A stretch of DNA of 64,000 nt from Robiginitalea marina (GTDB lineage Bacteria; Bacteroidota; Bacteroidia; Flavobacteriales; Flavobacteriaceae): NCBI RefSeq assembly GCF_024006985.1, contig NZ_JAMXIB010000005.1:1-64000 (forward strand), given 5' to 3'. The first letter of the stretch is position 1, and the number at the start of each line of letters is the position of its first letter. Made by a program: the position numbers and the translations under genes. The notes below the pieces were generated by a model, which made no database searches, was not told the origin of the DNA, and saw only the letters and a list, made by a program, of their open reading frames with translations. Below, piece after piece: positions 56,267 through 58,770 of the stretch.

Positions 56267-56881
56267 TTAAAAGAGCCCGTGGAATTCCGCGTCTATGCGG
56301 TTGATGACTTCCCCGAGGTGTTCGGGGTTATCCACGAAGTCGAGGTGGTCCACGTCGATAATCAGCAGGCGTCCGGTGTCGTATTTCTGCACCCAGGCTT
56401 CGTACCGCTCATTGAGGCGGCTGAGGTAATCGATCGAAATGGAGTTTTCGTATTCCCGGCCCCGTTTGTGGATCTGGTTCACCAGGTTAGGGATGGAGCT
56501 TCGCAGGTAGATCAGCAGGTCGGGCGGCTGCACCAGGCTTTCCATCAACTCAAAAAGGCTGATGTAGTTCTGGAAATCCCGGTTGGTCATCAGCCCCATG
56601 GCGTGCAGGTTGGGGGCAAAGATGTAGGCGTCCTCATAAATGGTCCGGTCCTGGATGACATTTCTGCCACTTTCCCGGATTTTTAATATTTGCCGGTAGC
56701 GGGTATTGAGGAAGTAAATCTGGAGGTTGAAACTCCACCGTTCCATCTGGGTGTAGAAATCATCCAGGTACGGATTGTCGACCACATCTTCGAAATGCGC
56801 CTCCCACCGGTAATGTTTGGCCAAAAGCTCGGTAAGCGTGGTTTTTCCTGCGCCGATATTGCCGGCCACCGCAATGTGCAT
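56267..56881 (-). CDS. Deoxynucleoside kinase
   Basis: A 204-residue kinase. P-loop AVAGNIGAGKTTLTELL, then FEDVVDNPYLDDFYTQMERWSFNLQIYFL (substrate Glu and Gln region) and VIQDRTIYEDAYIFA, the DRS-like motif (here DRT). Arg residues lie in the lid, KRGREYENSISIDYL. It phosphorylates a deoxynucleoside; which base cannot be told. A related domain is fused to FolK at 15460-16608. The start at 56881 gives the standard length; the longer frame to 57262 runs over the promoter and the metK riboswitch. A -7 box (TATATTTG, minus strand, 56928-56935) lies 46 bp upstream. Confidence 0.93.
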   Translation of the reverse strand: MHIAVAGNIGAGKTTLTELLAKHYRWEAHFEDVVDNPYLDDFYTQMERWSFNLQIYFLNTRYRQILKIRESGRNVIQDRTIYEDAYIFAPNLHAMGLMTNRDFQNYISLFELMESLVQPPDLLIYLRSSIPNLVNQIHKRGREYENSISIDYLSRLNERYEAWVQKYDTGRLLIIDVDHLDFVDNPEHLGEVINRIDAEFHGLF

Positions 56882-57072: not shown

Positions 57073-57102
57073 TTGCCGGCAAGTTCCTTTGTCCTATTTT
57101 TG
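57073..57102 (+). promoter_or_regulatory. metK promoter
   Basis: TTG (57073-57075), 19 bases, TATTTTTG (57095-57102): a textbook Bacteroidota -33/-7 pair. The expected start point, about 7 bases later, falls just before the riboswitch at 57112. Confidence 0.7.
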
Positions 57103-57111
57103 CCCCAATCG

Positions 57112-57180
57112 CGAGGATAGATTTGACTGATTGCAACCTCGGACGCCGGGATTCCCGGATCGAAAAAATGCTAAAGCAGT
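57112..57180 (+). ncRNA. SAM-II-type riboswitch (pseudoknot), metK leader
   Basis: The structure follows the SAM-II plan. P1 pairs CGAGG (57112-57116) with CCTCG (57137-57141). The enclosed loop reads GATTTGACTGATTGCAA, close to the SAM-II consensus. P2 pairs ACTG (57126-57129) with CAGT (57177-57180) across P1, making an H-type pseudoknot. The 3' strand carries ATGCTAAAGCAGT, with the conserved GCTAAA. An extra hairpin, CCGGG-att-CCCGG (57146-57158), lengthens the loop, as in the long-loop SAM-II variant. It starts about where transcription should begin. Downstream, CCGCC-ccct-GGCGG (57186-57199) may be the switch element. SAM would turn metK expression down. Confidence 0.75.
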
Positions 57181-57261
57181 AGGCGCCGCCCCCTGGCGGT
57201 TCCTTTCGCGCTGTTCCGCATTCTTTCCCCTCAGTCCGCTGTCCTCCCAACCTGTAGAGCA

Positions 57262-58518
57262 ATGCCTTATTTGTTTACCTCAGAGTCCGTGAGTGAAGGA
57301 CACCCCGATAAGATAGCCGACCAGATCAGCGATGCGCTTTTGGACCATTTCCTGGCGTTTGACCCTGAAAGCAAGGTGGCCTGCGAAACCCTGGTAACCA
57401 CCGGGCAGGTCGTCCTGGCGGGCGAAGTAAAAAGCAATACCTATGTGGACCTGCAGCAGATTGCCCGGGAAACCATCAACCAGATTGGATATACAAAAGG
57501 GGAATACCGGTTCAGCGGGGATTCCTGCGGGGTGATTTCGCTGATCCACGAACAATCCCCCGACATCCTGCAAGGGGTGGAACGGATTCAGAAGGAACTG
57601 CAGGGGGCAGGCGACCAGGGAATGATGTTTGGGTATGCCACCCGTGAAACCGATAATTTCATGCCCCTGGCCCTCGACCTTTCGCACCGTATCCTTAGGG
57701 AACTGGCCGCCCTGAGGCGTGAGGCGGCTGATATGCCATACCTGAGGCCCGACGCCAAAGCCCAGGTGACCCTGGAGTATTCCGACGACCACCAACCCCT
57801 GCGCATCGATTCCATCGTGGTATCGACCCAGCACGACCCCTTCCACCCGGAAGATGCGGTTATGCTTGCCAAAATCAAGGAAGACGTCATCCGGATCCTC
57901 ATCCCCAGGGTCAAGGCCGCACTGCCCCCCCGCATTCAGGCCCTCTTTGGAAGTGATATCACCTACCACATCAACCCGACGGGGAAATTCGTCATCGGCG
58001 GCCCCCACGGGGATACCGGGCTGACCGGACGGAAGATCATCGTGGACACCTATGGGGGTAAAGGGGCCCACGGGGGCGGGGCTTTCAGCGGAAAAGACCC
58101 CAGCAAGGTAGACCGCAGCGCAGCCTATGCCGCGCGGCATGCTGCAAAAAACCTGGTGGCGGCAGGGGTGGCCGATGAGGTGTTGATCCAGGTCAGCTAC
58201 GCCATTGGGGTGGCGGAACCCACTTCTGTCACCATCAATACCCATGGTACTTCCCGGGTGCCCCTCTCCGACGGGCAGATCTCGGAAAAAGTGAAGGAAT
58301 TGTTTGATATGCGCCCCGCCTTTATTGAAAAGCGGCTCAAGCTGCGCAACCCGATCTACCTGGAAACGGCCGCTTACGGGCATATGGGCAGGGAACCGCG
58401 CTGGGAAGACAAGGTTTACGAATCGCCCTACAGCGGCAGGGTGGAAACCCGGGTGGAACTCTTTACCTGGGAGAAATTAGATGCGGTAGATGCCGTGAAG
58501 CAGGCCTTTAACCTGTAA
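57262..58518 (+). CDS. metK: S-adenosylmethionine synthetase
   Basis: A 418-residue enzyme making SAM from methionine and ATP. The motifs are [45 protein letters not shown] (catalytic loop), YSDDHQP, and [19 protein letters not shown]. It is slightly longer than the E. coli enzyme, as is usual in Bacteroidota. Its leader holds the SAM-II-type riboswitch, so its product likely controls it. The metX-thrA fusion, with its own SAM-I switch, follows 252 bp downstream. Confidence 0.97.
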
Positions 58519-58528: not shown

Positions 58529-58551
58529 GACGTTCAGGATTTTAATGATGC

Positions 58552-58662
58552 GTTATCGAGAAAGGCGGAGGGACTGGACCCGGTGAAGCCTTGGCAACCC
58601 TGTGCCCCCGGGCAGAGAAGGTGCTACATTCTACCCCGGCGGGACCGCTGGGGAAAGATAAC
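58552..58662 (+). ncRNA. SAM-I (S-box) riboswitch
   Basis: The S-box consensus is nearly complete. P1 pairs GTTATC (58552-58557) with GATAAC (58657-58662). GAGAAAGGCGGAGGGACTGG (58558-58577) is the kink-turn and P2 side. TGAAGCCTTGGCAACC follows, then AAGGTGCTACATTCTACC in the J3/4 and P4 region, and GAAAGATAAC closes. Downstream, an almost perfect hairpin (TGCAGGGT with ACCCTGCA, and inside it CCCCGG with CCGGGG; 58720-58754) ends 16 bases before the ATG. It has no T run, which suggests control of translation rather than transcription. It controls the metX-thrA fusion. Confidence 0.93.
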
Positions 58663-58770
58663 CCACCAGGGAGCCCGCCGGCTTTTCCTGCCTTTCTCCA
58701 CGCAGATTTCAACAACCCTTGCAGGGTGCCCCGGGGTGTCCGGGGAACCCTGCAGCAACCATGTGAAGCG

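Follow-up and report, generated by a model that had tools for sequence, protein, structure and literature searches.

A long-loop SAM-II riboswitch at the metK promoter of Robiginitalea marina and a likely anti-aptamer expression platform in its linker

The leader upstream of metK in Robiginitalea marina is a SAM-II riboswitch of the long-loop type located at the metK promoter, an assignment supported by a covariance model, by gene context and by covariation. Downstream of the aptamer, the linker carries strands complementary to the aptamer itself. We consider it likely that this riboswitch exerts feedback control over metK, and that it does so through an anti-aptamer in the linker that serves as the expression platform and competes with the pseudoknot. 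The aptamer type is already known from Bacteroidota; what looks new, measured against the open-licence main texts of the literature, is the complementarity of the linker to the sensor. On balance, and with less assurance, we favour a broader reading in which the SAM-II RNAs of Bacteroidota probably share a previously undescribed anti-aptamer platform, two-part in part of the family, that uses neither a Shine-Dalgarno (SD) sequence nor an intrinsic terminator and has been maintained between families through compensatory changes. It would stand beside a SAM-I riboswitch in the majority of sampled family genomes, giving one pathway two sensors. To our knowledge, the way riboswitches work in a phylum with so little use of Shine-Dalgarno sequences is an open matter. 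The candidate switch element described here is defined down to single bases, which makes it accessible to compensatory mutation.

A covariance-model scan with Rfam of the window, meaning the whole 64,000-nucleotide stretch of DNA analysed, placed RF01726 (SAM-II "long loop") at the leader (Table 1), with E = 4.1e-9 for the window and 3.2e-11 for a 501-base stretch. RF00521 (SAM_alpha) did not match the locus even at E<=10 and was rejected as the family. The initial annotation had proposed a SAM-II fold, possibly the long-loop variant, and had made that proposal depend on a covariance-model hit. RF01726 supplied one above its cut-off, and gene context, P1 covariation and a 3' loop of 28 nt bear out both the fold and the variant. 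Its P1, GATTTGACTGATTGCAA loop, ACTG/CAGT strands, GCTAAA and 3'-loop hairpin all lie where it had placed them. The accession that it gave for the long-loop family, RF01826, was wrong, as a table in Weinberg et al. 2010 (PMC2864571) lists SAM-II long loops as RF01726. It recognized the aptamer and the promoter and missed both the anti-aptamer strands in the linker and the SAM-I riboswitch behind metK. Judged by sequence, the RF01726 aptamer presumably binds SAM here.

Table 1. Features of the metK leader and the genes and RNA elements around it (positions in the window).
Feature	Position	Strand	Basis or remark
Putative Bacteroidota-type promoter	57073-57102	+	TTG 57073-57075, spacer 19 nt, TATTTTTG 57095-57102
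SAM-II aptamer, long-loop type (RF01726)	57107-57184	+	60.3 bits; cut-off (gathering score) 44
P1 5' strand CGAGG	57112-57116	+	pairs 57137-57141; covariation
GATTTGACTGATTGCAA loop	57120-57136	+	sequence
P2 5' strand	57126-57135	+	ACTG 57126-57129 plus GCA 57133-57135
P1 3' strand CCTCG	57137-57141	+	covariation
Extra hairpin in 3' loop, CCGGG-ATT-CCCGG	57146-57158	+	arms 57146-57150/57154-57158
P2 3' strand	57167-57180	+	TGC 57169-57171, CAGT 57177-57180; conserved GCTAAA 57170-57175
Small G+C-rich hairpin, tip of anti-P2b arm	57185-57200	+	overlaps weak terminator-like site 57184-57198
Anti-P2b strand GCTGTTCCGCATT	57210-57222	+	minimum free energy (MFE) fold; complementary to AATGC 57167-57171 and AGCAGT 57175-57180
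Anti-core strand	57231-57246	+	MFE fold; duplex z -2.9, p 0.01; co-evolution in relatives
metK, S-adenosylmethionine synthetase	57262-58518	+	TIGR01034, 505 bits; Pfam
SAM-I riboswitch, in front of next gene	58550-58664	+	RF00162, 72.5 bits; cut-off 44.4
MetX-like / aspartate kinase / homoserine dehydrogenase fusion, 1135 aa	58771-62178	+	behind SAM-I

RF01726 is widespread in the family. It was found in 283 of 299 sampled Flavobacteriaceae genomes at E<=0.001 (275 above cut-off), in 136 of 139 genomes of a second family draw restricted to more complete genomes, and in 9 of 10 Robiginitalea genomes, the one without it being 74% complete. Among 247 genomes drawn from the class Bacteroidia it occurs in 40, of which 31 are outside the family. 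A metK match follows the SAM-II RNA in 134 of 137 fetched family loci. In the window, a deoxynucleoside kinase gene (56267-56881, minus strand; Pfam dNK) diverges from metK.

For comparison across leaders we assembled the 137 second-draw matches besides the window, eight genus relatives and the window itself (146 leaders) and used 142, dropping one with a core pattern mismatch (L080) and the three family loci that have no metK match (L077, L205 and L206). The 3' loop is at least 22 nt long in 76 of the 142 leaders and shorter than 16 nt in 64. The inserts of these long 3' loops fold better than shuffled sequences (p<=0.05) in 55 of the 76; for the window's own insert p is 0.23.

Two pairs of P1 covary over the 142 leaders. 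Pair c-7:2 is A-U in 135, G-C in five and G-U in two, and pair c-8:3 is G-C in 134, A-U in six and other in two (p 0.0005 for each; the leader set was uncorrected for P2b positions, which these counts do not use). Outside Flavobacteriaceae, GTGG/CCAC replaces GAGG/CCTC in 21 of 22 fetched loci; L212, from the same order, retains GAGG. Within P2, the crossing pair A57135-U57169 also covaries, being paired in 136 of 142 leaders (128 A-U, two U-A, one G-C, five G-U) against a permutation maximum of 134 (p 0.0002). The distal P2 strands ACTG/CAGT form all four pairs in 117 of 142 family leaders and are almost invariant, with own no better separated from swapped strands than p 0.12, so covariation is hard to judge there within the family. 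Outside it, all four pairs form in one of 21 loci, and own strands do no better than swapped ones (p 0.996). The compensatory changes in related genomes to which the initial annotation had tied its pseudoknot are thus present in P1, but not in ACTG/CAGT, which is nearly constant among the family leaders and not retained beyond them. In the loci of other Bacteroidota families (L209-L234), distal P2 ACTG/CAGT is not retained, and TTGC and GCTAAA are. The RF01726 aptamer may come in two subtypes.

A TTG and TATTTTTG pair precedes the aptamer in the window, and we take it to be a promoter on the strength of what we assume to be the Bacteroidota consensus. A scan for E. coli-type promoters gave no match here. 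Of the 142 related leaders, 140 have TAnnTTTG no more than 45 nt upstream of P1 (shuffles would give 9.7), at a median of 13 nt before P1. Only 41 of the 142 have a TTG further upstream whose spacing satisfies a rough test. Of the two-element promoter originally proposed, both elements are present in the window, and the TTG half is poorly kept among relatives. Because P1 begins only 9 nt after TATTTTTG, the RNA should start within a few bases of P1, in line with the initial annotation. In the main text of Corbino et al. 2005 (PMC1273637), SAM-II in alphaproteobacteria likewise has a start site a few nucleotides before P1.

In the mechanism that we propose, RNA with SAM would form the P1 plus P2 pseudoknot and metK would be off. 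Without SAM, the anti-core strand would occupy P1 on its 5' side together with the 5' strand of P2, and the 3' strand of P2 would be taken up by the anti-P2b strand. The two leader folds would be mutually exclusive, with low SAM favouring the anti-aptamer fold and turning metK on. That SAM shifts the balance between the folds, and that the SAM-bound state is the OFF state, is what we infer from this arrangement.

The window itself illustrates the predicted alternative. Unconstrained, positions 57108-57275 reach an MFE of -54.9 kcal/mol with both anti-helices present, against -46.0 kcal/mol for the most stable nested fold in which P1 is retained, both energies excluding pseudoknot and ligand contributions. 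In the anti-core helix, TCAGTC (57231-57236) pairs with GACTGA (57125-57130) and CTGTCCTC (57239-57246) with GAGGATAG (57113-57120), invading both P1 and P2. The P2b arm pairs 57167-57171 with 57218-57222, 57175-57180 with 57210-57215, 57181-57183 with 57202-57204 and 57185-57190 with 57195-57200. The remaining pairs of the MFE fold are 57146-57150 with 57154-57158, 57162-57165 with 57224-57227 and, at the metK start, 57258-57262 with 57271-57275. For anti-P2b in the window, the pairing probability is 0.75 versus 0.23 in shuffled sequences, and duplex energy alone gives p 0.12.

Strands complementary to the aptamer lie downstream of P2 in many leaders. The common linker form, GUCAAAU(C), is present in 66 of 140 leaders and matches GAUUUGAC in the aptamer. 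Where core or flank differs, matching linkers are seen: GCAAUC opposite GAUUGC, and CCUUCC where the flank is GGAAGG. In the genus the form is shifted, the window having UCAGUC...CUGUCCUC against GAGGAUAG...GACUGA. A second linker strand, ACUUCUUUAGC-like by eye in part of the family, matches P2b. The genus version of this anti-P2b strand, RCUGU...GYAY, occurs in eight of nine genus leaders (L039 lacks this half) against 0.07 expected from shuffles, the motif having been defined post hoc on the very leaders that were then used for the count.

Compared with shuffles, the best core-linker duplex has a mean z of -2.56 and reaches p<=0.05 in 99 of 142 leaders, leaving 43 in which it is not significant alone; an equally long upstream stretch used as control gives -0.04 and 9 of 142. 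For P2b the mean z is only -0.71, with 13 of 142 leaders at p<=0.05 (control -0.04 and 7 of 142), computed with P2b positions that are wrong in nine of the 142 leaders, as they also are in the random-linker, flank-covariation and linker-start tests. Corrected positions underlie the relative swaps, the terminator rule and promoter counts in the family, the folds, the pairing probabilities, P2 covariation and accessibility. Set against random other linkers, a leader's own linker fits its core with z -11.1 (none of 5000 permutations was as good) and its P2b with z -4.0.

Linkers were also swapped between nearest relatives. Of 67 pairs compared for the core, 52 favoured the own linker and 13 the swapped one, with two ties (sign p 1.2e-6); in the upstream control the split was 37 to 30. 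For P2b the result was 38 to 24 with four ties in 66 pairs (sign p 0.098, Wilcoxon 0.032; upstream control 35 to 27). These tip pairs are disjoint but may have inner branches in common on a metK tree of poor support, which was built from the 140 leaders with a usable metK protein and has 16 of its 137 inner branches starred. Anti-core tests on supported branches of that tree had 2 and 6 usable pairs and no power.

Covariation of the flank points in the same direction. Among the 83 leaders that share the GAUUUGA register (the other 59 of the 142 were not counted), the second base before AUUUGA forms 57 Watson-Crick pairs with the linker (A-U 43, G-C 13, U-A 1), against a maximum of 52 in 5000 permutations (p 0.0002). 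Covariation is weak at the third base (p 0.016) and absent in these 83 leaders at the first (p 0.076) and at the fourth to sixth (p 0.39, 1.0 and 0.31). In partition-function calculations the core is paired with the linker at a probability of 0.63 versus 0.32 for shuffled linkers, exceeding 0.5 in 117 of 142 leaders versus 19; for P2b the values are 0.49 versus 0.20, and 76 of 142 versus 1. Real pairing lies above shuffled pairing in 134 of 142 leaders for the core and in 127 for P2b. Outside the family, where 20 of 22 fetched loci were usable (one has no metK match and one a core mismatch), the core-linker duplex reaches p<=0.05 in 12 of 20 leaders against 1 of 20 in the control, and the P2b-linker duplex in 0 of 20. 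From the duplex, swap, covariation and pairing tests together, the core half of the anti-aptamer is well supported and extends more widely than Flavobacteriaceae. Support for the P2b half is weaker and confined to part of the family.

How the SAM-bound fold would turn metK off is a separate matter. We lean slightly towards an effect on translation over Rho-dependent termination, since modelling predicts a marginally less accessible start region once the aptamer is locked. The difference in start-region accessibility, free minus locked, is +0.032 versus -0.019 for shuffled linkers and is higher in 102 of 142 leaders (p 1e-10); the predicted effect is small. Anti-core strands of the TCAAAT type end a median of 24 nt before the ATG (87 leaders). 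Linker and start region show no significant direct pairing overall (mean z -0.28; p<=0.05 in 17 of 142 leaders), and a freed linker pairing with the start region was rejected as a general OFF device, despite the slight shift of mean accessibility in that direction.

Rho-dependent termination, with the linker masked in the SAM-free state by its pairing with the aptamer, is in our view somewhat less probable. Linkers are rich in C and poor in G (1920 versus 1039 in 142 leaders, compared with 1356 versus 1236 upstream and 3996 versus 4588 in early metK; 42.5% C and 22.5% G in the window linker), and the strict rule finds no intrinsic terminator in any of the 142. Complementarity to a purine-rich aptamer alone, however, yields C over G. 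The excess is therefore no independent test of Rho and was rejected as a sign of it.

Shine-Dalgarno sequences are little used in Bacteroidota, which counts against a plain SAM-II riboswitch in which P2 directly hides the ribosome-binding site and the linker complementarity is incidental. We regard this explanation as unlikely. An SD sequence inside or next to P2 and close to the ATG is not found in the window, where 81 bases separate P2b from the ATG and thus make SD masking inside P2 unavailable; linker-core co-evolution and the fold statistics speak against chance. In its favour, the aptamer is intact, and the main text of PMC9373788 describes a compact SAM-II RNA from a Sargasso Sea metagenome in this way.

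Slightly less probable still is intrinsic termination, the mode predicted for a large number of SAM-II RNAs from alphaproteobacteria. Terminators follow many SAM-II aptamers in the main texts of PMC1273637 and PMC2258182, and a laxer rule picks out two weak terminator-like sites in the window region, of which one is on the plus strand at 57184-57198, against 0.4 expected in shuffles. Yet the strict rule gives 0 of 142 linkers (shuffled 0.5), on which an intrinsic terminator was rejected as the general platform, and the window hairpin is predicted in both folds. Least probable of all is that the conserved linker strand is a binding site for a protein or small RNA with a secondary match to the aptamer: the recurrence of GUCAAAU would suit such a site, but it would leave unexplained why the linker tends to change to match a differing aptamer core or flank.

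The anti-aptamer platform that we favour would set these RNAs apart from the nearest known systems. With RF01726 as described by Weinberg et al. 2010 (PMC2864571), the locus shares an end-to-end aptamer match, the Bacteroidetes host and a long 3' loop. The Rfam model of that family ends at P2 (60 positions) and includes nothing of the linker, which here carries the proposed anti-aptamer, and the main text of the paper mentions no expression platform for it. With RF00521 (Corbino et al. 2005, PMC1273637), as its main text presents it, the locus shares the P1 plus P2 pseudoknot, a promoter a few nucleotides before P1 and methionine or SAM synthesis genes downstream. Many RF00521 members have putative intrinsic terminators after P2, in contrast to the linkers studied here, none of which has one under the strict rule. 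The SAM-II RNAs of S. meliloti metA and metZ (PMC9373788) also have alternative structures, and the metA start codon is situated downstream and governed from afar, as we propose for that of metK here. In contrast to the present leader, metA relies on an SD sequence within the riboswitch itself and metZ relies on a predicted terminator, and the main text reports no anti-aptamer of the present kind for either.

The second sensor of the locus, SAM-I (S box), belongs to the same ligand class and pathway and has an unrelated fold; in the window it precedes the metX fusion gene and not metK. Only 31 bases separate it from the end of metK, which puts the two sensors 1.4 kb apart. The start of the fusion gene in Table 1 is our choice, as the ORF finder's start (58591) lies inside the SAM-I aptamer. 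A second SAM-I riboswitch lies outside the window (G000:C45:67198-67338). SAM-I occurs in 234 of the 299 sampled family genomes; 16 of the 299 are without a SAM-II match, and six of these have SAM-I (G048, G066, G118, G138, G151 and G170), so 228 genomes carry both classes. In all nine genus genomes with matches, a SAM-I lies roughly 1.4-1.6 kb downstream of the SAM-II and shares its strand. Across the family, 42 of 137 loci include SAM-I within a span of 1 kb upstream to 3 kb downstream of SAM-II, some spans being shortened by contig ends: in 22 it is divergent, lying ahead of metK on the opposite strand, and in 20 it lies behind metK. Both members of the divergent SAM-II/SAM-I arrangement were confirmed with Rfam models in L129, L116, L124, L171, L146, L079 and L189. 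The main text of Barrick and Breaker 2007 (PMC2258182) reports no species with both SAM-II and SAM-I. That of a 2022 survey (PMC9481103) gives nine tandems, seven with SAM-II before SAM-I/IV and two in the reverse order.

The three family loci in which no metK match follows the aptamer come from two small genomes (G004 and G052) without a SAM-I match. In L077, the SAM-II copy (1001-1060) stands before metY, followed by a metX-like ORF, and GUCAAAUC comes after the aptamer. The copy in L205 (1001-1059) precedes a gene of no assigned function and then a gene resembling the N-terminal part of metH, and that in L206 (1001-1061) is separated by two small ORFs from a metZ-like gene downstream. L205 and L206 each contain a hydrophobic ORF of 183-184 aa (L205:1103-1651 and L206:1602-2153); the two look alike by eye, and their product possibly has a methionine- or SAM-related function.
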